NCBI GenBank assembly: GCA_017551675.1
Contig: JAFZLC010000004.1
Span: 1-60,424 of the forward strand
Length of the DNA: 60,424 nucleotides
From: Paludibacteraceae bacterium
GTDB taxonomy: Bacteria; Bacteroidota; Bacteroidia; Bacteroidales; Paludibacteraceae
Reading direction: 5' to 3'
Positions 46,608 through 59,500 of the stretch are shown here, in pieces. The notes beneath the pieces are model-generated. The model made no database searches. It saw only the letters and a program-made list of their open reading frames with translations, and was not told the origin of the DNA. Numbering within the stretch: the first letter of the stretch is position 1; each line of letters starts with the position of its first letter. The translations under genes and the position numbers were made by a program.

Positions 46608-47063
46608 ATGGCACAATCGCTAGCAAAAGTCTATCTACATCTAATCTTCCATGTAAAATACGACTCTGTTATCATTCGAGAAGAAGATCGTCCAAAACTA
46701 TACTCCTACATCGATGGTATCATCGTTAATAAGAATTCGACGGTACTTCAAATAGGAGGGACTTCCGATCATATCCATATTCTATGTACCCTTCCCCGAA
46801 CAATTTCCATGTCCAGTTTAGTGGAAGACATCAAGAAGTGTAGTAGTTCTTGGATTAAGACCATCAATCCATGCTATTCTAAATTTGCATGGCAAGGTGG
46901 GTATGGTGTATTCTCTGTCAGTTCCTCTATAGTGGACAATGTGAAAATGTACATTTTAGGTCAAAAGGAACATCATCGCAAGAAAACTTTTCAAGAGGAA
47001 TATGAGGCATTTCTGAAAGCCTATCACATTGAATATAATCCTGATTATGTGTTTAGTGATTGA
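46608..47063 (+). mobile_element. REP-associated tyrosine transposase (RAYT, IS200/IS605 TnpA-like)
   Basis: A 151-residue Y1/HUH nuclease. The HUH motif is SDHIHIL (His55, His57) and the catalytic Tyr115 sits in VKMYILGQKEHHRKK. It has the size and layout of IS200/IS605 TnpA, and with REP hairpins on both sides is best called a RAYT. RAYTs nick and join single-stranded REP DNA and spread REP copies; they are not usually mobile themselves. No TnpB and no IS200 ends are seen. Confidence 0.88.
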
Positions 47064-49266: not shown

Positions 49267-49452
49267 ATGGAAAACATGACTGACTTCTTCAAAAACTATT
49301 ACGAGAAAAATGGTTCTCAGGGTGAACTTGGCATGATTCACTCTTGTCCGGAACTGATGGAGTGCATCCAACAAAGTTTTCATTCTCCATTATTTGTCAC
49401 CTCTCCCCTCGTCCGCAGATACGTACTTAGCCCATACAATGGCACGTTCTGA
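49267..49452 (+). CDS. Short ORF, possibly a truncated gene
   Basis: A 61-residue frame starting MENMTDFFKNYYEKNGSQG. It overlaps the 3' end of the minus-strand ATPase gene by 73 bp. A near -7 box, TATCTTTA (49225-49232), lies upstream. The N-terminal part looks like coding sequence; the part after about residue 41 is read on the ATPase antisense strand. It may be the start of a gene cut off when the ATPase cassette arrived, or spurious. Confidence 0.3.
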   Translation: MENMTDFFKNYYEKNGSQGELGMIHSCPELMECIQQSFHSPLFVTSPLVRRYVLSPYNGTF

Positions 49453-50705
49453 ATTTTCGTGTCTGAATGGAACGGCAACAAAGAGGTTTTCACTGCACAA
49501 ACGGGCTGATACGTCTGACAGAAAAGCGTGAAACTACGAGAACGTAAGTTTTCACCCGATTTCACTTCAATAGGAATTATATCACCTTGTTGCTGCACAA
49601 GAAAGTCTATTTCCGATGTACTTCGATCATTTGTCCAATAGCCAATGTAATCAGTGGCAATCGTGGCAAGATTCTGCATGACGAACTGCTCTGTCAAAGC
49701 TCCTTTAAACTCGGTGAATATCGCATTCCCATCGATCAAGGTCTTTTCGTCTAACCCTGACATGGCACTTAGTAACCCAACGTCCACCATGAACAATTTA
49801 AAAACATGCAGGTCCTGGTAAGCGACGAGAGGCATTCTCGCAGCACTCACTCTGTTCGATTTAAGTACCAGTCCGCAGTCGAAAAGCCACATTATGGCCA
49901 ATTCAAAATCCTTTGCCCTCGCACCATCTCGCATTACTCCATAAACAAACTTTTTATTCTCTTTGCTGAGTTGTGCCGGCAAACTGTTCCAAACCATATC
50001 CAACCTTGGCACTTGTTCTTTGGGAACATGTTTGGAGAAATCAGCTTGATAGGAACGCAATATCTCATGTTGGACATCTCGCACTTCTGAAAATTCCTTT
50101 GTGTCAATCCACCGCTGTACCACTTCAGGCATCCCGCCTACAAACATATAATAACGCAGGAACATAAGCAACTCCGTATGGAAAGACCTCAGTATGTCCC
50201 ATTGACCTTTTCGCATGACATCCACCAACATCTCTTTCCCGTTTGCCATCAAAAACTCCTCGAACGAAAGTGGATGCAAATCAATAAACGACACCTTCCC
50301 CACTGGAAATGAGTTTTTCTCATGAAGCGAGATTCCTAATAACGACCCAGCGGCAATGACCGCATATTGAGGTGCTTCCTCGCAAAAATATTTTAATGAC
50401 GTCAATCCCCCTTCAACCGCTTGTATCTCATCGAAAATAATAAGGGTTGTGTCAGCATCAATCGGTTTACCATAAAATATCTGAATAGTATAAATGATGC
50501 GTTTAGTGTCATAATCCTGCAAAAACAAATCCCTGAAACGGGGTTCATTCTCAAAATTAATATATACAGTTTCCTTAAATTCCTGTCTTCCGAACTCCTT
50601 CATCAACCATGTCTTACCTGTCTGCCTGGCCCCTCGTACAATAAGCGGCTTACGTCTTTTCTGATTTTTCCATTTTACAAGTAACTGAAGTGCATCTCGT
50701 TTCAT
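49380..50705 (-). CDS. AAA+ ATPase with DUF4143 (ATPase 1 of 3)
   Basis: A 441-residue protein. Walker A GARQTGKT (25-32), Walker B LIIFDE (88-93), sensor-like IAAGSLLG, then a winged-helix-like region (about 245-300). The DUF4143 C-terminal domain carries SEIDFLVQQQGDIIPIEVK, the D-x-ExK pattern of PD-(D/E)xK nucleases. This family is widespread in Bacteroidetes, with function unknown. It has a canonical promoter, preceded by four exact-length 33-bp repeats. Its 3' end may have overrun the ORF at 49267. Confidence 0.9.
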   Translation of the reverse strand: MKRDALQLLVKWKNQKRRKPLIVRGARQTGKTWLMKEFGRQEFKETVYINFENEPRFRDLFLQDYDTKRIIYTIQIFYGKPIDADTTLIIFDEIQAVEGGLTSLKYFCEEAPQYAVIAAGSLLGISLHEKNSFPVGKVSFIDLHPLSFEEFLMANGKEMLVDVMRKGQWDILRSFHTELLMFLRYYMFVGGMPEVVQRWIDTKEFSEVRDVQHEILRSYQADFSKHVPKEQVPRLDMVWNSLPAQLSKENKKFVYGVMRDGARAKDFELAIMWLFDCGLVLKSNRVSAARMPLVAYQDLHVFKLFMVDVGLLSAMSGLDEKTLIDGNAIFTEFKGALTEQFVMQNLATIATDYIGYWTNDRSTSEIDFLVQQQGDIIPIEVKSGENLRSRSFTLFCQTYQPVCAVKTSLLPFHSDTKIQNVPLYGLSTYLRTRGEVTNNGE

Positions 50706-50730
50706 AGGCTTTTTATTTGATTTTCAAGTA

Positions 50731-50760
50731 CAAAAATAGATTTTTAATTCAAACCAACAA
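50731..50760 (-). promoter_or_regulatory. Promoter of ATPase 1
   Basis: Minus strand: TTG (50758-50760), 19 bp, TATTTTTG (50731-50738). The 33-bp repeat array starts 6 bp upstream of the -33 box. Confidence 0.75.
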
Positions 50761-50765
50761 AATTT

Positions 50766-50897
50766 ATCTCGATAAAAGTGTTGTCGAGTGACATTTTTAT
50801 CTTGATAAAAGTGTTGTTGAATTACATTTTTGTCGTGATAAAAGTGTGTTGGAGTATCATTTTTATCGAGATAAAGGTGTTGTCGGATAAAATTTTT
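50766..50897 (-). repeat. Four 33-bp tandem repeats upstream of ATPase 1
   Basis: Units at 50766-50798, 50799-50831, 50832-50864 and 50865-50897, each exactly 33 bp. The conserved core on the plus strand is GATAAAAGTGTTG with an ATTTTT end; the first unit is bounded by CTCGA/TCGAG. Copies differ at several positions, so the period rather than identity is preserved. A partial fifth unit (CTTGATTGTACA) follows. Confidence 0.9.
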
Positions 50898-50940
50898 CTT
50901 GATTGTACATTCCTTGTAAGCTTAACCATTACAGGAGTCT

Positions 50941-51513
50941 TCACTTCACCTTATCAATCGCCTTAATGCACTTCTGTCTGTCCTTGCCCGTCAGTTGGGA
51001 CTTCATCACTGTACCTCCCCGTTCAATCTCCTTGACAATCTTAAATCCAGCATAGCGGCATATCTCACGCATGGCACGGATGGCGCCCCGTGATTGCTTA
51101 AACCAGATGTTAAACGGCCAAGGGGTAGTGCAAGTGCTGACGAGGATGCATTTCTTTCCCTTCATCAGGGGCTCGGGAAAACGGGGTGTGTCTCGCATCA
51201 TGCCATAGACCAGACGGTCGAACAACACCTTCATCTGTCCGGGGATGTTGCCCCAGTAGCAAGGCGCTCCCATGATGACGGTATCCGCCCAACGTAGTTT
51301 CTCCAGCACTTTCAGCGTGTCATCCTCGGGTAACACACATTTCTCTTTGGTTCGACAGACCATGCAACCGATGCAGGGTTTCATCTCGAGGTCCATGATA
51401 TTGACCGTCTCCACTGTCATATTGTTCGACTGAGCCTCTTCCTGCATGATGCCCAGCATCTGTGATATAAGTCCCTTCTTGCGCGGACTTCCATTGATAA
51501 TCAGTATATTCAT
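50941..51513 (-). CDS. Flavodoxin-fold NADPH-dependent reductase
   Basis: A 190-residue protein starting MNILIINGSPRKKGLISQ (FMN loop), with PCIGCMVCRTKEKC and GAPCYWGNIPGQMKVLFDR. These are marks of the iron-sulfur flavoprotein/FMN reductase group; the Cys set may bind a cluster or flavin. An ATG at 51606 would add 31 residues overlapping the ATPase 2 gene; the family start is at 51513. It follows ATPase 2 by 16 bp and is likely co-transcribed with it. Confidence 0.88.
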   Translation of the reverse strand: MNILIINGSPRKKGLISQMLGIMQEEAQSNNMTVETVNIMDLEMKPCIGCMVCRTKEKCVLPEDDTLKVLEKLRWADTVIMGAPCYWGNIPGQMKVLFDRLVYGMMRDTPRFPEPLMKGKKCILVSTCTTPWPFNIWFKQSRGAIRAMREICRYAGFKIVKEIERGGTVMKSQLTGKDRQKCIKAIDKVK

Positions 51514-51529
51514 ATTGTCATTCTTATTT

Positions 51530-52744
51530 TCAGAAATCTTTTCTTGAACAGAATTGGCGAACGGAAAGTTCCTCAATTCCCTCGTATGTATTGCCTTCGA
51601 AGCCATTCCATGTGACGACGTACTTAGGATAGTTATCTTTGATTTTCAATAGGTTGCCGAATTCACGGTTCTCCGTCTCTTCATCATTTATGGCAAGGGC
51701 AGCCTGTATATAGATGCGCTCATTGTTCTTTTCAGCGACGAAATCGATTTCCTGTCCATTCATATTTCCCACCTTTATATCATATCCTAAATATTTCAAA
51801 TGCTTGAAAATCAGATTCTCAAGTATCTTCCCTTTATCTTTGGACCGGTATCCCACCAACACGTTACGTATCCCTAGGTCTTCAAAATAGTATTTCTCTC
51901 CTACTTCAAACATCCGTTTGCCTGCCAAATCATATCGTTTCACGTTATGAAGCATAAATGCATTGCATAGATAACCTGCGTATGCTTGTATTTGGTTGAC
52001 TGACAATGTTGAAAACTGCGATTTCAGATAATCACTGATGTTTTTTGCCGAAAAAAGTGAACCAACATTATCCGCAAGAAATTTCACTAAGTTTTCTAAT
52101 AACAAAGTGTTACGGATTTGATACCGTTCGGTTATGTCATGGAATAAGATGGTGGAATAAACCGATTTCAGATAATCAGTGACGATTGACTCTTCAAGAG
52201 GAAGATGACGAAGGAAAGGCAGTCCACCGAATCGTGCATACTTTTCAAAGCTTTGATCAGAATCGGCAATGTTGTTAAATTCAATGAATTCGGGATACGA
52301 AAGGCCATAAACAGGTATTTCTATGTAACGACCACTCAGGTAAGTTGCCAACTCACTTGAGAGCATTTTGGCATTGCTACCTGTCACATAGATATCGAAA
52401 GATTCGTTAAGTAAGATTGAACGGAGGACTTTCTCGAAGCCATTGACATTCTGTATTTCATCAATGAACAAAGCCGTCTTTTTATCAGGAGATGTGTGTG
52501 TGGTGATATATTGATGTAAATGCTCATCGGTTCTGATTTTTGAGAGTTCGTATTCCTCTAAGTTGATATAGACTAATGCTGTGTCAGGTTGTGTGAGACT
52601 GATTTTGTTCATGATTTGTTGAAGCAAACAACTCTTACCCACACGACGTTGCCCTGTGAACACTTTTATAATCTGCTTGCCTATAAATGGCTGTATGCGA
52701 GATGTATATTCGTTCCGTTCTATGATTTCCCTTCTCTTGCTCAT
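51530..52744 (-). CDS. AAA+ ATPase with DUF4143 (ATPase 2 of 3)
   Basis: A 404-residue protein. Walker A GQRRVGKS (31-38), Walker B ALFIDE (91-96), YVTGSNAKML sensor, winged-helix-like region (about 210-275) and a DUF4143 C-domain with GQEIDFVAEKNNERIYIQAA. The acidic residues are kept but the usual ExK is YIQA, so the nuclease-like site looks degenerate, as in many members of this subgroup. Its promoter region is filled by three 40-bp palindromic repeats. Followed in the same operon by a flavodoxin-fold reductase. Confidence 0.9.
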   Translation of the reverse strand: MSKRREIIERNEYTSRIQPFIGKQIIKVFTGQRRVGKSCLLQQIMNKISLTQPDTALVYINLEEYELSKIRTDEHLHQYITTHTSPDKKTALFIDEIQNVNGFEKVLRSILLNESFDIYVTGSNAKMLSSELATYLSGRYIEIPVYGLSYPEFIEFNNIADSDQSFEKYARFGGLPFLRHLPLEESIVTDYLKSVYSTILFHDITERYQIRNTLLLENLVKFLADNVGSLFSAKNISDYLKSQFSTLSVNQIQAYAGYLCNAFMLHNVKRYDLAGKRMFEVGEKYYFEDLGIRNVLVGYRSKDKGKILENLIFKHLKYLGYDIKVGNMNGQEIDFVAEKNNERIYIQAALAINDEETENREFGNLLKIKDNYPKYVVTWNGFEGNTYEGIEELSVRQFCSRKDF

Positions 52745-52747
52745 TGT

Positions 52748-52857
52748 CGAATGTTTTAAATGTACTTAAAACTTTTGCGCAAATATACGAAAGTTTCAAA
52801 TACGATTAAAACTTTTGCAAAAATTCGGTAAAGTTTTAAGTATGATTAAAACTATTC
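52748..52857 (-). repeat. Three 40-bp-period palindromic repeats at the ATPase 2 promoter
   Basis: The core TTAAAAC occurs at 52766, 52806 and 52846, exactly 40 bp apart. Each is preceded by an inverted copy (for example GTTTTAAATGTACTTAAAAC), giving imperfect palindromes at about 52748-52778, 52789-52818 and 52827-52857. The first lies in the leader next to the -7 box, the other two upstream. Confidence 0.85.
52780..52787 (-). promoter_or_regulatory. -7 element of ATPase 2, between palindromes
   Basis: Minus-strand TATATTTG lies between the first and second palindromes, so a bound regulator would cover the promoter. No TTG at standard spacing. Confidence 0.6.
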
Positions 52858-53002
52858 ACGATCTCTTGATACAACAAAGGTATATCTCAATCATCTTGTC
52901 TGCAAGTTTTCGGGGTATAAAGCACAACGACTTTGATGGTTTTTCATGGGAAATTTGTTTATATTTGTGAATCTTTTTATTATAAATGCAAGATAGATTA
53001 GG

Positions 53003-53572
53003 ATGAGTCGTGTTTTGAAATTATCACTTTTATTATTGGCAATAGTCTTTTTAGCCGGGTGCCGAACCAGTTCTCCATCTCGCTATTGTTCTACGATTGT
53101 GGGTGGAAAGTATGAGGAGTCAAAAGACAGCACCTCCTATTTTGTATTACCTTATGGTAGCGTGATGATACCTGGCAAGTGGAAGAAAACATCGTACAAC
53201 AATGTCAGCCGACAACAATTTTTCATGAATAGCGACTCCGTTACCCTCTCTGTCGTTTTTTCTCGGTTTAACGGATATGAGTTCAATCTGGATGGGGCAA
53301 AGACAGGATACGATTTTGTGAAGGCCTGCTACGAATGGGAGACAGATTACTTTGAGAAAATACATGGTCTGAAACATATGATCATCGAGGAGGACAAGGA
53401 AAAACATTATATGATTTTCAGGGTTTACGACGCATCCGATAAGGCCAACGTTAATACGTATTTTCTATTGGGGGAAAAGAATGGTAATGTTAGCTATTTT
53501 TCCCTCTCCCGAGCAGAGAAATGGACGGAAGAGAGACGATTGGAATTTTTACGTGGATTGTTGAAGCCTTAA
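53003..53572 (+). CDS. Lipoprotein of unknown function
   Basis: A 189-residue protein with a signal peptide and lipobox VFLAGC (Cys20). The body is an alpha/beta domain with IPGKWKKTSYNNVSRQQFF and VTLSVVFSRF, similar in texture to the C-terminal domain of the next gene product (FIIPKEF, CVFSSYDGG). Such pairs suggest a stress-response or surface role, but no family is certain. The -7 box TATATTTG is at 52960-52967. Confidence 0.75.
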   Translation: MSRVLKLSLLLLAIVFLAGCRTSSPSRYCSTIVGGKYEESKDSTSYFVLPYGSVMIPGKWKKTSYNNVSRQQFFMNSDSVTLSVVFSRFNGYEFNLDGAKTGYDFVKACYEWETDYFEKIHGLKHMIIEEDKEKHYMIFRVYDASDKANVNTYFLLGEKNGNVSYFSLSRAEKWTEERRLEFLRGLLKP

Positions 53573-53610
53573 ATGTTGTCTGTGTTGTACTTTAAACAAT
53601 ATGTTGTACC

Positions 53611-54687
53611 ATGAATAATAGTGAAAACAATAACATCACCAGTGAATGGCTAAAAGCCAATACGAAAATAACAGGATGGCTTACGCTCTTCCTGGTGCTG
53701 CCATTAGGTGTAGGAAGCGCAAGAAGCTTTCTCTATCAAATCAAAGAATATAATGCTGAGGATTATGGCAATAATCTTTGTTTAGGCTCAGTGGACATTT
53801 TTATCAGTTTGTCATTCTTAGGTATGGCAATTTTTATTATCTATTCTTTTCTCAACAGAAAACGGAACGCCGTATTTTGGGCAAAGGCTTATATTATATT
53901 GTCCATTCTATTAAATTTCCTAAACCTCATCCTGAATATGAATGCGGATGCCGATTTTATTGGCGAAAAACTTAAGATAGACCATGAAAACTATCGATTG
54001 ATTTGTAGTATCATGTGGGGAGTGATTTGGTTTTTATATCTGACGTTCTCAAAACATGTACAAGAAATTATACCCAAATCGTTCAGAAAAGTTTCCAAAT
54101 TAGACTGGGGCATTTTGGCCGCTATCATATTGATTCCTATCGCCTTGTATGTTATTGGAATGGCTCAACTTAATGCGATGGATGCCACAGATTCCCAAGA
54201 GATAGAGACCAATATCATATATCAGGATGCAGATTCTCTCTATTATGCGGAAACGGAACAAGTGAAATTCATCATTCCAAAAGAATTTAGTTGTGATGCA
54301 AGTCTCGCTTATGATATAGAAGGCAAAGACCTTTATGCTTATGATCTTGCGGACGAGGTTAATTTCTTCAGCATGGTCACTTTGTGCTCTGAATACAAGG
54401 CAGATAGCTCACTCTCAAATCTTGACCGACATTGGGAAGTCTGGAAAAAAAAGGAACATAAAGAGGTCTCTATGACCGATGTGGATCGAGGTGTGCAATC
54501 CATAAATGGGAACAAATGTTTGTACCGCATCTGTAAATATATTGATGAGGATGGTGAGAGTTTATACTGGAGATTCTATCTCCTGTTCGATAGTGAAACA
54601 GACAAATCATGTGTGTTTTCATCCTATGATGGTGGAGAGTCAACTGAGTATGTTGATGAAATATTGAACTCCATCCAATTTAAATAA
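53611..54687 (+). CDS. DUF2569-like membrane protein with soluble C-domain
   Basis: A 358-residue protein. The N-terminal part has four or five membrane helices (about 20-190) and the ITGWLTLFLVLPLG start of DUF2569 proteins. A soluble C-terminal domain (about 200-358) resembles the lipoprotein encoded just upstream. The start is 38 bp after the lipoprotein stop. Function unknown. Confidence 0.78.
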   Translation: MNNSENNNITSEWLKANTKITGWLTLFLVLPLGVGSARSFLYQIKEYNAEDYGNNLCLGSVDIFISLSFLGMAIFIIYSFLNRKRNAVFWAKAYIILSILLNFLNLILNMNADADFIGEKLKIDHENYRLICSIMWGVIWFLYLTFSKHVQEIIPKSFRKVSKLDWGILAAIILIPIALYVIGMAQLNAMDATDSQEIETNIIYQDADSLYYAETEQVKFIIPKEFSCDASLAYDIEGKDLYAYDLADEVNFFSMVTLCSEYKADSSLSNLDRHWEVWKKKEHKEVSMTDVDRGVQSINGNKCLYRICKYIDEDGESLYWRFYLLFDSETDKSCVFSSYDGGESTEYVDEILNSIQFK

Positions 54688-54778
54688 GTCCAACGTAAGC
54701 GACGCCATGCCTTCTACCTACACAACGGCTTTCGCGACACGCACATTTACCAATCACTCGGCGACATAGCGGCTACTA
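54688..54778 (+). pseudogene. Remnant of a GNAT acetyltransferase C-terminus
   Basis: After the 54687 stop, an open frame without start reads RKRRHAFYLHNGFRDTHIYQ. This is the end of a GNAT domain (FY-x-x-NGF motif) in more GC-rich DNA. It runs into the convergent gene at 54776. The rest of the gene is absent. Confidence 0.7.
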
Positions 54779-55474
54779 AAAACTCATTCGTAATGATAAT
54801 GTGTTTATACCTATTTCAAGATCAATTTGGGAATTGAATCCTGTTGTTCGCGAATTGTGTTTTTCTACCAATTGGTTGCATCCATGTTGACTTTTTACAA
54901 GATTCACTATACCCAACGCGAAGAGTGGAGTGCTTGTTAGCCTCAACCCTCCAGTAACTATCAAAAGGGGAGGTTCACCACCATATAGTCCTGCTATCAT
55001 GGTTCCAACACTCATCGCCCTACATATACCTCCCAAAATCAAAAGCCGCTTACCTTTTTTTCTCTTCTCTTTATACATGGTGAACTCGTTCCAGTCATCC
55101 CCCATAATGGATTGCGCCTGCTCTACTGAAAGAGCCATGCCTCCTAAAGATAAGCCAGACTCGTATTCCTTATCATACTTCAAATTAGGGATTGTGATTA
55201 TCTGTGACTTATCAGTGACAATATTAGATTGGGGTGTAGGTTTCACCCCAAATACATCTTTCTCTCCATTTTGATACTTAATCATGAAAATCTCTTCCCG
55301 TTCTTCAACATAAGTAGGTCCATTCTGATTTGTCCATCTTTTGTATTTGACACTCTCTGTACCAACTTCAAGTAGTTTACACTGAATTTCATCACCGTTT
55401 TGTTTTATAATAACATCCTGTGCCATCGCTGGTATTGAGCATAGAGAACAAATTAAGAATAAAGCTTTTTTCAT
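54776..55474 (-). CDS. Secreted/anchored protein, paralogue of the 55481 gene
   Basis: A 232-residue protein. Signal peptide (about 1-18, AMAQ), then a small beta domain DVIIKQNGDEIQCKLLEVG and VKYKRWTNQNGPTY, ending in EIFMIKYQNGEKDVF. A linker and a C-terminal membrane-hairpin-like region follow (about 135-185). The N-terminal domain is nearly the same as in the upstream gene; such proteins are common and uncharacterised in Bacteroidetes. Starts 6 bp after the upstream stop. Confidence 0.78.
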   Translation of the reverse strand: MKKALFLICSLCSIPAMAQDVIIKQNGDEIQCKLLEVGTESVKYKRWTNQNGPTYVEEREEIFMIKYQNGEKDVFGVKPTPQSNIVTDKSQIITIPNLKYDKEYESGLSLGGMALSVEQAQSIMGDDWNEFTMYKEKRKKGKRLLILGGICRAMSVGTMIAGLYGGEPPLLIVTGGLRLTSTPLFALGIVNLVKSQHGCNQLVEKHNSRTTGFNSQIDLEIGINTLSLRMSF

Positions 55475-55480
55475 GTAAAG

Positions 55481-56377
55481 TTAGAATGTAAGTGAAAATA
55501 CTATATTATTACCATATGAATCGATGTTGAACTCAGGCTTAGACATGCTTGTCTTACCTTGGATCTGTTCATACTCATCTATGTGCTTGTTAACAATTTG
55601 AATGGCGTTACTATGTCCACGCTTCGCCTTTATGATGCCGAATATCAGTAGTGGTGTGCCAGTGGCAAGACCACCTATCATGAGGTAACCACAAGTCCTT
55701 CTCCAATCTGCCGCCCAAAGCTTTTCTTCGTTAGCATATGAAAGTTTATATATATCATGTTCTAAAGAAATATCATACATTCTCCTAATCTCTTCATAAT
55801 TTCTTTTTGCATCTATATATTCCTTACATGCAATTGAATATGGAACTATCCAGCATGATCCTCCAAGGAACAATGGACCTCCCGTAAAAACCATTATTTT
55901 ACCCGCTCTTTCGTTTTTTCTTGCTTTTTTGTAATCGAGCCAGTCTTTTGTAAAGATGTTCTGAGCCTGTTCCTTCGTTTGTGGGTGTCCCCACTTGATT
56001 ATGCCAGATTTGCTTCCAAAAGCTTTGTATTTCAAATAAATATTTGAAATCGGAGTTGGATCAGCTACTATGACTTCATTTGGCATTGAGAATGACAAGT
56101 TTGGAATAGATATGGCGGTATCCAAGGCGGGAACTTCATAGGCCATCACGTCCTTTTCTCCATTCTCATATTTAATCATAAAGATATCAGACTTCTTTTC
56201 TGCAAATATAGGTCCATCCAAATTCGACCAACGCTTGTACTTTACTTCATTCTTGCTAACTTCCAAAATTTTACATTGAAGTTCATCTCCATTGCGTTTT
56301 ACAATAACGTCTTGTGCTGATGTTGTCAAAACAGTACATGTCATTAAAAAGAATAATAATCGTTTCAATCTATTCAT
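55481..56377 (-). CDS. Secreted/anchored protein, tandem paralogue
   Basis: A 298-residue protein with the same plan: signal peptide (about 1-21), DVIVKRNGDELQCKILEVS and VKYKRWSNLDGPIF, SDIFMIKYENGEKDVM, then a longer linker and a C-terminal region with two hydrophobic segments (about 165-185 and 225-245). It heads the pair. Directly upstream lies a terminator hairpin and a structured RNA on the same strand, so read-through could control this gene. Confidence 0.78.
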   Translation of the reverse strand: MNRLKRLLFFLMTCTVLTTSAQDVIVKRNGDELQCKILEVSKNEVKYKRWSNLDGPIFAEKKSDIFMIKYENGEKDVMAYEVPALDTAISIPNLSFSMPNEVIVADPTPISNIYLKYKAFGSKSGIIKWGHPQTKEQAQNIFTKDWLDYKKARKNERAGKIMVFTGGPLFLGGSCWIVPYSIACKEYIDAKRNYEEIRRMYDISLEHDIYKLSYANEEKLWAADWRRTCGYLMIGGLATGTPLLIFGIIKAKRGHSNAIQIVNKHIDEYEQIQGKTSMSKPEFNIDSYGNNIVFSLTF

Positions 56378-56421
56378 ACTTTTTGTTGTTTAAAAATTAC
56401 TCGCTCGTCCTATAAGTACAT

Positions 56422-56674
56422 AAAAAAAGCGTGAACTTTAACATTGTTCCCGCTTGCTGAGGTATTTGGCGTAACCCGTAAATGCAGAAATAAGTTAAGC
56501 CCACGCCTAAGCGCGAGCAATCTTAACCTATCATCTCCATTTACCTTAAAATCGCCAAATTTTCAGCAAGAAGAATGAAAAGCCAAAATGCTTTTTATAT
56601 GTCTGTTATATATGATATGTACAGGTGTCTCTATTATTCTTACCTTGCACATATCTGATTTTTATTGCTTTATA
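56422..56674 (-). ncRNA. Structured RNA candidate, 6S-like in shape
   Basis: A canonical promoter leads to about 250 nt without ORF, ending in a strong terminator. The 3' half forms one long irregular hairpin: P1 56563-56570/56453-56460 (8 bp), P2 56553-56559/56465-56471 (7), P3 56538-56544/56478-56484 (7), P4 56522-56527/56494-56499 (6), P5 56511-56517/56500-56506 (7). A wide internal loop lies between P3 and P4. P5 pairs by G.U only on the minus strand, supporting that strand as the transcript. Terminator at 56422-56455 (10-bp stem, T7). A leader/attenuator of the 56377 gene is the alternative. Confidence 0.65.
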
Positions 56675-56680
56675 TCTATG

Positions 56681-56710
56681 CAAAAATAGAAAATCGGTTT
56701 GAATTAGCAA
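56681..56710 (-). promoter_or_regulatory. Promoter of the structured RNA
   Basis: Minus strand: TTG (56708-56710), 19 bp, TATTTTTG (56681-56688). Predicted start near 56674. Confidence 0.75.
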
Positions 56711-56784
56711 AAAGGTTGACAGCATAAATATTTTCACTTCGAATAAACTCCACAATATCCACATCGAGGAACGACCATCGCCAT

Positions 56785-56812
56785 GTAGAGACGCAATGCA
56801 TTGCGTCTCTAC
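56785..56812. repeat. 28-bp perfect palindrome
   Basis: GTAGAGACGCAATG followed by its exact reverse complement, with no loop. Palindromes of this GTAGAGACGCA type recur in many bacterial genomes as REP-like elements (from memory). It sits just left of the ATPase 3 element. Confidence 0.75.
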
Positions 56813-56835
56813 GGTGCCAGCCTAACAACCAGCAA

Positions 56836-56989
56836 AGAACCAAATCATTGCCGATGATCTATTCCGTTAAAATATCCGATAACCAACCAAATCCCACCCC
56901 AAAACCATAGATTTAGTTGGCTATCCACCAAAAACTATATCGATAGCCAACTAAATCGTGGTAAAAAAGGGTAGATTTGGTTGGCTATC
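56836..56989 (+). repeat. Left copy of a 154-bp direct repeat with a 32-bp operator-like array
   Basis: The first 32 bp match the end of the ATPase 3 gene (frame NQIIADDLFR plus stop). Four 16-bp copies of GATTTRGTTGGCTATC follow in alternating orientation at 56878 (-), 56910 (+), 56942 (-) and 56974 (+), exactly 32 bp apart. Copies 1/4 and 2/3 are perfect complements (apart from one change in copy 1). The fourth copy contains the TTG -33 box (56981-56983) of ATPase 3. Confidence 0.92.
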
Positions 56990-57003
56990 CAAAAAATGAA
57001 TAC

Positions 57004-57011
57004 TATATTTG
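57004..57011 (+). promoter_or_regulatory. -7 element of ATPase 3
   Basis: TATATTTG, 20 bp after a TTG inside the last repeat copy. Predicted start about 17 nt before the ATG at 57035. Confidence 0.75.
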
Positions 57012-57034
57012 TGGCATGATAAAACTCTTTTATT

Positions 57035-58451
57035 ATGCTGGTAGGACGTGAATTGGAACAAAACTTACTCTTGGAAACCCTCAAGAGTGACAAGTCTGAA
57101 TTCGTCTATCTACGGAAGAAGACGTGTGGGTAAAACATATCTGGTCAGAGAAACTTTCAACTACGAATTTGCTTTCCACCATACAGGTGTGCAGAATGGC
57201 GACAGAAACCGCCAACTCTCCGTGTTCGAAAAATCTCTTGTAGCGGCAGGCTTATCTAAATGCCCTAAACTAAACGACTGGTTTGATGCTTTCGATGCAC
57301 TTGGCAACTTCCTGCAAAGTGTTCCCAATAAGAAAAAAATCATCTTTATAGATGAACTGCCTTGGATGGATACTCCTAAATCAGACTTCATATCCGCCCT
57401 CGAACATTTCTGGAACGGTTGGGCAACCATGCGCCGCGACATCGTACTCATCATCTGCGGAAGCGCCACTTCCTGGATTGTCAGCAAAATAGTAAATAAT
57501 TATGGAGGTTTACACAATCGTCTTACCCGCCAAATCTTTCTGAAACCTTTTTCTTTGCATGAATGCGAACTGTTCTCTTCTGCTTGCGGACTGAAAATGA
57601 CTCGCATGCAAGTGCTACAGACGTATATGATTCTGGGCGGTGTACCCTACTATTGGAGTCTTCTCAGACGAGGATTGAGTTGGGCTCAAAACATTGACTT
57701 CCTGTTCTTTGATGAGAATTCGGAACTTAGAAACGAATTCGACGCCCTTTATTCATCACTCTTTAAAAACAAAGAACCCTATATCCAGATTGTCAGAGCG
57801 TTAGGAAAGAAAAAAACTGGAATGACCCGTGGAGAAATTGCCACAACCATCGAACAAGATCATGGCGGAACTCTTTCGAAAACACTGAAAGACCTCGAAC
57901 TATGTGGTTTCATTCGCACATATACTTCCATCGGAAAAACAAAAAAGGACACCCTTTATCAATTATACGATAATTTCACTTTGTTCTATTTCCGTTTTGT
58001 GGAAGGCAATCCAACAAAAGACCCGCAATTCTGGTCTCGATCCATAGGCGGAGGCACCTACAACGCATGGTGCGGACTTGCATTTGAACGAGTCTGTTTA
58101 CAACATATCGACCAAATAAAAAATGCACTGGGAATAACAGGTGTCATCAGTAGTGTCTATTCATGGCTATACCGCCCTAAAAACAATAATGAAACAGGTA
58201 CTCAGATAGATCTTCTTATCGACCGTGCAGATGGAGTCATCAACCTCTGCGAGATAAAATTCTCACAAGGAAAGTATGAAATCAAAAAGAAGTATGCTGA
58301 TGAGTTACGTCAGAGAGTCTCCATCTTCCAATCAAAAACGGAAACCAAAAAGGCTGTGTTCATGGTTATGATAACAACAGAGGGATTGGTCAACAATGAA
58401 TATGCCGGTGATGTCCAGAACCAAATCATTGCCGAGGATCTATTCCGTTAA
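57035..58451 (+). pseudogene. AAA+ ATPase with DUF234-type C-domain (ATPase 3 of 3), frameshifted near the start
   Basis: From the ATG at 57035 the frame reads MLVGRELEQNLLLETLKSDK and SEFV, the family's N-terminus, then is lost at 57107. The rest continues in another frame as IYGRRRVGKTYLVRETFNYE (Walker A), IIFIDE (Walker B), a winged helix (GMTRGEIATTIEQDHGGTLS) and a C-domain with TQIDLLIDRADGVINLCEIK, an intact D-x-ExK site. Two bases appear missing where relatives read FVA-x-YGRRR. An ORF from 57048 stays open (467 residues) but has a nonsense N-terminus. It is inactivated, recently shifted, or misassembled. Confidence 0.8.
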
Positions 58452-58570
58452 AATATCCGATAGCCAACCAAATCCCACCCAAAAACCATAGATTTAGTTG
58501 GCTATCCACCCAAAAATATACCGATAGCCAACTAAATCGTGGTGAAAAAGGGTAGATTTGGTTGGCTATC
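58417..58570 (+). repeat. Right copy of the 154-bp direct repeat
   Basis: Same length and order as the left copy. It begins inside the ATPase 3 coding end (NQIIAEDLFR) and has repeat copies at 58459 (-), 58491 (+), 58523 (-) and 58555 (+), again 32 bp apart. Here it is followed by a T6 run and the promoter of the DUF4298 gene. Confidence 0.92.
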
Positions 58571-58671: not shown

Positions 58672-58956
58672 ATGACACGAAAAGAACGTATAGAACAGAT
58701 GGAGAGTCTCTTCGACCAAAGCAACGAAGTACTCCAACGATTGAGAGAAGCAGTCGATGACTTCTTCGCCCTACAACCCACCATCTCCAAACTGGAGAAC
58801 TATTACAACACCGATTGGCGCACTGATTTCGAGGCCGACGAAAAGGGAAAATTGCCAGCCGATCTCAAACGAGGAGTACTCAGTGAAGACGGATTGTGGG
58901 ATTTGCTGGAGGAGTATCAACGGTTGAAGGAGAGCATGGAGGATGACACCGTTTAA
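58672..58956 (+). CDS. DUF4298 protein
   Basis: A 94-residue protein with ERIEQMESLFDQSNEVLQRL, YYNTDWRTDFEADEKGKLP and LKRGVLSEDGLWDLL, the DUF4298 pattern. Small, helical and soluble. Function unknown. The start is fixed by the -7 box at 58643. Its last codons and the following 25 bp are duplicated after the next gene. Confidence 0.88.
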   Translation: MTRKERIEQMESLFDQSNEVLQRLREAVDDFFALQPTISKLENYYNTDWRTDFEADEKGKLPADLKRGVLSEDGLWDLLEEYQRLKESMEDDTV

Positions 58957-58977
58957 ATAACTAAAAAAGGACAAACA
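58942..58977 (+). repeat. 36-bp direct repeat, first copy
   Basis: GATGACACCGTTTAAATAAC through ACAAACA, covering the DUF4298 stop. A second copy with two mismatches is at 59465-59500. Confidence 0.85.
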
Positions 58978-59464: not shown

Positions 59465-59500
59465 GATGAGACCGTTTAAATAACTAAAAAAAGACAAACA
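59465..59500 (+). repeat. 36-bp direct repeat, second copy
   Basis: GATGAGACCGTTTAAATAAC through ACAAACA, ending at the A of the next start codon. Confidence 0.85.

Follow-up and report, generated by a model that had tools for sequence, protein, structure and literature searches.

Repeat arrays at the promoters of AAA+ ATPase genes in Paludibacteraceae and their relatives as candidate operators of one-gene cassettes

Introduction

Fusions of an ATPase domain to a domain of the PD-(D/E)xK superfamily, among them the types PDC-S01 and PDC-S27, are described as very common, with validation pending for most PDCs (PMC12988326). PDC-S01 is reported to rank fourth in frequency among the defences of all prokaryotes, and no other individual locus was as frequent in a rumen survey (PMC12988326; PMC13356809). 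ATPases of these two types can be regarded as abundant candidate phage-defence genes. Here we describe repeat arrays at the promoters of three AAA+ ATPase genes, designated A1, A2 and A3, in 60,424 nucleotides of DNA from a Paludibacteraceae bacterium (contig JAFZLC010000004.1; this whole stretch is called the window), which is one contig of a 3.3-Mb genome assembled in 58 contigs. A1 and A2 score as PDC-S01 and L053, an intact relative of A3, as PDC-S27; the available parts of the two reports mention no promoter array, operator or self-regulation for either type (PMC12988326, PMC13356809).

The same domain types are found in arCOG03166, an AAA+ ATPase fused to helix-turn-helix and RecB nuclease domains that was taken to be likely a defence gene or some plasmid gene and that may well belong to the same family as the ATPases described here; cis arrays are not mentioned in the available text (PMC4158269). 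An AAA_14/DUF4143 gene of Thermus thermophilus appears as a table row among genes changed with plasmid DNA. A literature search, which left preprints and most subscription papers outside, found no account of arrays with such ATPases.

Archaeal Orc1/Cdc6 lies beside origin recognition boxes and plasmid Rep beside iterons, and the present loci resemble both in that a gene adjoins phased sites and, for the A3 type, in a match to the AAA+/winged-helix fold. Unlike Orc1/Cdc6 and Rep, however, the ATPases described here occur in many chromosomal copies, with sites phased to promoters and with an extra nuclease-like domain. Autorepressed toxin-antitoxin operons and RptR, reportedly a repressor of defence islands, offer a further parallel; the likeness would lie in a conflict gene whose promoter is overlaid by an operator. 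The differences are that the presumed repressor would here be the ATPase-nuclease itself, that the sites form multi-site arrays and that no conserved separate regulator is found nearby.

Results

Three ATPase genes have nearly private arrays at their promoters

ATPases A1 (49380-50705, minus strand, 441 amino acids) and A2 (51530-52744, minus strand, 404 amino acids) have AAA_14 and DUF4143 domains, and A3 (57035-58451, plus strand) is of the ATPase_2 type. An earlier note on this DNA had placed a strictly periodic repeat array at a TAnnTTTG promoter of each gene, and all three arrays were confirmed using Tandem Repeats Finder (TRF) and pattern searches, with the promoter elements located by eye. 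For A1, TRF reported 4.1 copies of a 33-bp unit at 50763-50897, in which the box TTATCNNGATAAAA[AG]TGT is present on both strands; measured between centres, 38 bp separate the TAnnTTTG (-7) element at 50731-50738 (minus strand) from the closest box. The A2 array (52752-52853; period 40 by TRF, at 52766-52853) comprises inverted-repeat sites at 52752-52775 (three mismatches), 52790-52813 and 52830-52853, with the TAnnTTTG element between two of them (52780-52787, minus strand), and an ortholog array is found in locus L088. For A3, four 16-bp sites at 56878-56989 precede a TAnnTTTG element at 57004-57011 (plus strand). The exact periods claimed by the note held for A1 and A2 but not for A3, where the half-site GATAGCCAACYAAATC recurs at 56878 (+), 56910 (-), 56942 (+) and 56974 (-); since these half-sites are spaced by exactly 32 bp and alternate in orientation, the direct period is 64 bp. 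This array is absent from the TRF list (score 30).

Searches of the whole genome revealed few further copies of these sites. The A1 box TTATCNNGATAAAARTGT, allowing up to one mismatch, has eight matches genome-wide, seven of them inside the A1 array. Exact copies of the A2 site AAAGTTTNAANTANGATTAAAACT are found at 52790 and 52830, both in the A2 array, and allowing three mismatches adds one at 52752 and a single stray elsewhere. All eight genome matches to the A3 half-site with up to one mismatch are at A3 (upstream and downstream copies), while at two mismatches there are four strays compared with three for a reversed control pattern. Given that near-exact sites are almost confined to their own array, the arrays can be called nearly private in this genome, in line with the earlier note. 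The note had also considered the repeat sequences to be unrelated, which is not wholly so, as the A1 array holds a core common to its relatives, next to a half that is variable (see below). In the same genome, arrays or palindromes are also found ahead of other DUF4143 genes (L001, L005, L006/L137, L007 and L004); the upstream region of L008 falls off its contig.

Upstream repeats are a general feature of these ATPase genes

The survey covered genomes of the genus and of relatives as distant as the order. Within the intergenic DNA upstream of each gene (300 bp at most), direct repeats were scored as z against dinucleotide shuffles, with proteins clustered at 70% identity. ATPase genes were kept if their intergenic DNA measured 110 bp or more and their N-terminus was nearly complete (104 of 145 DUF4143 and 25 of 45 A3-type open reading frames (ORFs), where totals and kept sets alike include the same gene seen in overlapping loci). 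The controls were other genes of loci from genus, family and order relatives, and for the cluster comparison we removed 35 of them whose upstream DNA is also found at an ATPase. The excess of upstream periodicity that the earlier note had anticipated was borne out: 41/62 DUF4143 clusters (Fisher 3e-20) and 13/21 A3-type clusters (Fisher 2e-8) have direct repeats with z>3, compared with 20/238 control clusters. For the strongest members of the DUF4143 clusters above this threshold (n=43), the best lag was 32-33 bp in 23, near a multiple in 8, 21-23 bp in 4 and 40 bp in 3, while for the A3 type it was 51-54 bp in 10/13. In the 300 bp downstream, no direct-repeat excess was detected for DUF4143 (10/59 clusters vs 32/221 controls) and a weak one was seen for the A3 type (7/21 clusters, p=0.056). 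The cis-element family attached to these ATPase genes is real, strong and general.

The elements vary between subfamilies. At least two AAAGTTT half-sites precede 3/12 clusters of the nearest A2 relatives, compared with 1/238 controls. In a DUF4143 subfamily of ~390 amino acids (L161-L189) a single long promoter palindrome is typical (inverted repeats with z>3 in 12/27, direct repeats in 5/27). By eye, the outer arms of these palindromes, near TTATGCAAT, look constant and the inner arms variable.

The A1-type box has a constant and a private half

Relatives of A1 were taken as the best 80 loci of one scan (50-100% identity), of which 79 were used, the upstream DNA of L262 being too short. By their record labels they come from Bacteroidota, Fibrobacter, Clostridia and other Bacillota, Lentisphaerae, Opitutales, Chlorobiota and Gastranaerophilales; the closest named relatives among the matches listed are Paludibacteraceae metagenome-assembled genomes of ruminant origin. 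Direct repeats with z>3 are found upstream in 49/79. At least one core A[AT][AT]A[AG]TG[TC] was detected for 74/79 A1 relatives, 55/104 DUF4143 genes of the genus and 49/264 controls, and at least two for 48/79, 33/104 and 4/264, respectively; the strict form AAAA[AG]TGT was detected for 65/79, 38/104 and 25/264. A single core is weak evidence alone, as 4 to 49 of the 264 controls have one depending on the test, and controls and Bacillota loci are unlike in base composition. The spacing of cores in the A1 relatives is independent of the control genes: among 132 same-strand pairs, 46 are 33 bp apart, 22 are 32 bp apart and 20 are 66 bp apart. The genus DUF4143 genes have a similar distribution (33 bp in 54 pairs, 66 bp in 24 and 32 bp in 12, of 149), and the controls gave three pairs, none near 33.

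The box of the A1 relatives combines a constant half, AAAA[AG]TGT, with a variable half and repeats every 32-33 bp. The refined box matrix, trained on the same sequences that were later scored with it, reads [AT]T[AT][CT][CG]nn[GC]nn-AAAA[AG]TGT[AG]. The same A1 box is found in Fibrobacter and Bacteroidales at ~70% protein identity. By eye, plasmid relatives in Glaesserella, Acinetobacter and Vibrio have similar boxes upstream and a Collinsella relative has 33-bp repeats with a variant core, while no upstream array was seen by eye for a Fusobacterium relative.

Boxes are placed at fixed distances from promoter elements

For 43 loci grouped as Bacillota-type from record titles (one of the 43 is Gastranaerophilales), we detected a sigma70-like promoter in 28, with a box upstream in 23 of these. 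The -35 element is 33 bp below the corresponding box position in 19/23 and 32 bp below it in 2/23, a phase that places the -35 within the next, often degenerate, box. Among Bacteroidota-type loci, 119/135 have a TAnnTTTG element and 55 of the 119 also have a box, whose centre is 12 bp upstream of the element in 22 cases, while in 12 the distance is 38-39 bp; counting one per protein cluster, the positions are -12 in 14 and -38/-39 in 9. This geometry looks like that of an operator bound by a repressor, and the fixed placing of sites relative to promoter elements is as would be expected for self-regulation.

The unit is one gene encoding an ATPase with a winged helix

Both domains of A1 (AAA_14, 98.6 bits; DUF4143, 117 bits) and of A2 (108.7 and 62.7 bits) exceeded the Pfam cut-offs. 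PADLOC assigned A1 to PDC-S01 over residues 1-429 of 441 (E 5.6e-179), A2 to PDC-S01 over residues 6-401 of 404 (E 8e-147) and L053 to PDC-S27 over residues 2-471 of 476 (E 5e-205), and searches of PHROGs and NCBIfam gave no match. AlphaFold models had predicted local distance difference test (pLDDT) values of 91.6 for A1 and 91.8 for L053, and structure comparison identified the AAA+ and winged-helix fold of STAND and archaeal AAA+ ATPases. The closest solved folds are the archaeal AAA+ ATPases 2qen and 2fna followed by STAND proteins (CED-4 and plant NLRs); the A3-type model also matches the ORC/Cdc6 fold, with archaeal AAA+ and STAND proteins scoring equal or better. The structure matches listed fall chiefly on the ATPase and winged-helix part and, with no separate search of the C-terminal domain, include no nuclease fold. 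In the residues that we take to be the PD-(D/E)xK motif, E365, E380 and K382 are invariant and D367 is conserved in at least 90% of 72 A1-type sequences, as are D393, E407 and K409 (invariant) in 22 A3-type sequences. The note had ascribed Walker motifs, a winged-helix-like region and a PD-(D/E)xK-like C-terminal domain to all three proteins. PD-(D/E)xK-like residues are supported for the A1 and A3 types, but the nuclease motif of A2 looks degenerate by eye, with Q and A replacing E and K.

DUF4143 matches number 3-19 per genome in 16 genomes of the genus. Conserved neighbours were sought in the 80 A1-relative loci, and no family was found in more than 3/80 when a cluster of antisense ORFs was set aside. 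That cluster, present in 21/80 loci, is antisense to the ATPase, with 22/24 of its ORFs inside the gene and the remaining two both in L238, at its ATPase by coordinates. A conserved neighbouring regulator was thus rejected; a single gene together with its array makes up the unit.

Protein and box variation are partly correlated

Covariation was examined for 110 proteins, 14 of which were dropped by eye from the tree tests owing to doubtful box register or remote sequence. T358-N359 occurs with G at box position -7 in 55/58 proteins, compared with 3/52 of the others (53/53 vs 2/43 after the 14 rows were dropped). Resampling weighted by branch linked changes at residue 363 to changes in the private half (q=0.017); of 337 residues tested, 361 came second (q=0.084). 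The pair that ranked first in the hypergeometric test, box position -6 and residue 262, weakened to p=1.4e-3 after branch weighting (2,696 tests). The earlier note had raised covariation of the arrays with the winged-helix region; co-change in that region as a whole was slightly elevated (p=0.016; four regions were tested), but the sole residue with q<0.05, 363, is in the nuclease-like domain. In Mantel tests of box against protein similarity the correlation was 0.35 for all pairs (p=0.001) and 0.62 within phyla (p=0.001), where phylum labels came from record titles and pairs with three unassigned proteins were pooled into the same-phylum pairs. For 26 cross-phylum pairs of 65-80% identity, from few lineages, 88% of the variable box positions agree. 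Collectively, these sequence comparisons are suggestive of covariation between protein and box.

Copies of the A3 array flank the gene

The A3 gene had been read as one intact gene and its array as upstream only, and neither held. The gene is broken: the ATG at 57035 and the ORF at 57048-58451, which carries Walker A, are in different frames, and the frameshift lies within 57035-57130, while the frame is intact in L053 (genome G004, 93% identical). A second, directly repeated copy of the array is located downstream at 58459-58570, and together with the gene end it forms a repeat of 154 bp that is 95.5% identical and flanks A3. The C-terminal tail remnant of a lost A3 copy (NQIIADDLFR, stop) is present upstream at 56836-56870 (plus strand). 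Arrays are found on both sides of the A3-type gene at the orthologous loci L142 and L143, and L088 (4547-10301, G004) is a decaying tandem cluster in which four A3-array copies are separated by gene pieces. The bracketing of A3 agrees with copies being duplicated and lost when arrays recombine with each other.

More broadly, the two flanks of the gene, upstream and downstream, resemble each other (z>6) in 10/21 A3-type and 14/59 DUF4143 clusters, compared with 11/201 controls. Inspection of 24 such cases by eye assigned 18 to copies of the gene's own array or palindrome and 6 to other repeats; 16 of the 18 start within 40 bp of the stop codon, and most are direct repeats. Downstream boxes were detected in only 3/89 A1-type loci, and a mobile cassette as a general rule was rejected on this ground, while it remains a rival for the A3 type. 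Two neighbour loci were compared at the A1 position. In G015 (L089, 2262-2567) the A1 body is deleted, leaving 87 bp of the 3´ end, the promoter and the array, and in G014 an unrelated gene occupies the position; no clean empty site or insertion boundary was seen in these two. Two successive array units of L089 look identical, as though one had recently been duplicated. In L022, L023, L026 and L114, the upstream palindrome or array is repeated almost exactly 0-25 bp past the stop codon.

Discussion

We consider it probable that these loci are one-gene cassettes in which a STAND-like ATPase/PD-(D/E)xK-type protein represses its own gene by binding to that gene's array, and self-binding with autorepression is, on the sequence comparisons, the best supported of the mechanisms considered. 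The interpretation in the earlier note is, as a whole, partly supported. An ATPase of the PDC-S01 or PDC-S27 type, with its winged helix and PD-(D/E)xK-type domain, would be paired with its own operator array and would occupy several sites, probably as an ATP-dependent oligomer, at spacings typical of its family, mostly near three helical turns for the DUF4143 types and near five for the A3 type. In A1 relatives, the protein would read the constant half together with the private half. With a site over the -35 or close to the -7 element, occupancy would be expected to block the gene's own promoter. Autorepression may keep the ATPase-nuclease scarce pending a trigger, plausibly phage or plasmid DNA, that alters its nucleotide or oligomer state, and the private half would prevent cross-repression among the many paralogues of one genome.

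Several observations weigh against this interpretation. Strong direct repeats are missing from 21/62 DUF4143 clusters, some of which carry palindromes instead, and many Bacillota genes have one clear box and one degenerate box, which is hardly an array. When box-like matches overlapping the -35 were sought directly, they were found at only 17/28 Bacillota-type promoters. The association of T358-N359 with G became clean only through removal of the 14 rows, which took all three exceptions, and it reflects just two shared changes on the tree. For cross-phylum pairs as a whole, likeness of the boxes is unrelated to likeness of the proteins (Spearman -0.01, p=0.58), and box agreement between phyla is higher at <35% identity (0.47) than at 45-55% (0.36).

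A different protein might bind the array, namely a host regulator common to many bacteria that reads the constant AAAA[AG]TGT half and controls defence-candidate genes: this half is common to relatives in several phyla, and the likeness of boxes between phyla is not explained by ATPase similarity. Such a regulator would not account for the other half, which varies between ATPases and is near-unique in the genome of the window, nor for the quite different sites of other subfamilies; moreover, no neighbouring regulator family is conserved, and the box sequence is preserved beside closely related ATPases of a second phylum (Fibrobacter), so we regard control by a host regulator as quite unlikely. 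The arrays might instead be the ends or recombination sites of a small mobile array-gene-array cassette, perhaps cut by the nuclease domain. The upstream/downstream likeness in both gene types, the 18 inspected copies of own arrays or palindromes, the A3 tail remnant and the four arrays and intervening gene pieces of L088 are consistent with such a cassette. Against these stand the six inspected cases that are other repeats, the rarity of downstream boxes in the A1 type, the phasing of sites to promoters, the lack of a conserved partner gene and of a clean empty site in the two loci compared, and the fact that homologous recombination between operators leaves the same traces; mobility is thus an unlikely explanation.

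An initiator with iterons, in which an ORC/Cdc6- or Rep-like ATPase would act at an array that is a replication origin, appears very unlikely considering the 3-19 DUF4143 matches per genome, the occurrence of A1 relatives in only 59/72,556 plasmid records, the phasing of sites to promoter elements, and the archaeal AAA+ and STAND fold matches that score equal to or better than ORC/Cdc6. Chance or low-complexity repeats in A+T-rich intergenic DNA do occur, as the 20 control clusters above z 3 illustrate, but the scores against dinucleotide shuffles, the enrichment over controls (Fisher 3e-20) and a fixed spacing without counterpart in the controls leave them with next to no probability, and this explanation was rejected. 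A CRISPR array was likewise rejected, given the 32-40 bp periods, the similar DNA between sites and the lack of Cas proteins among eight Pfam-scanned proteins of the window.

Beyond autorepression, the array could also be a storage and sensing device, on which an inactive multi-protomer ATPase-nuclease would be held at its private array until released by invading DNA or by array loss through titration, replication or cleavage; release would both de-repress the gene and arm the nuclease. We hold this extension to be speculative and rather unlikely. If true, it would amount to one-gene defence with promoter DNA as the guard's perch, and with private addresses each of the 3-19 DUF4143 paralogues in a genome would act on its own. 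For self-binding with autorepression, a cis-element family present in several phyla predicts a ligand (the protein's own box), a readout (promoter activity) and residues to mutate, so that an "unknown ATPase" becomes a testable candidate for a self-addressed regulator.

Other features of the window

Directly 5´ of the A3 remnant is a perfect self-complementary element of 28 bp (56785-56812), and an element resembling it is found both upstream and downstream of the ATPase in L030. A small ORF at 46608-47063 presumably encodes a protein resembling an IS200-like/REP-associated transposase; a similar ORF in L148 is preceded by 35-bp repeats. Finally, a 36-bp direct repeat (58942-58977 and 59465-59500, 94% identical) is located ahead of two small putative membrane-protein ORFs.

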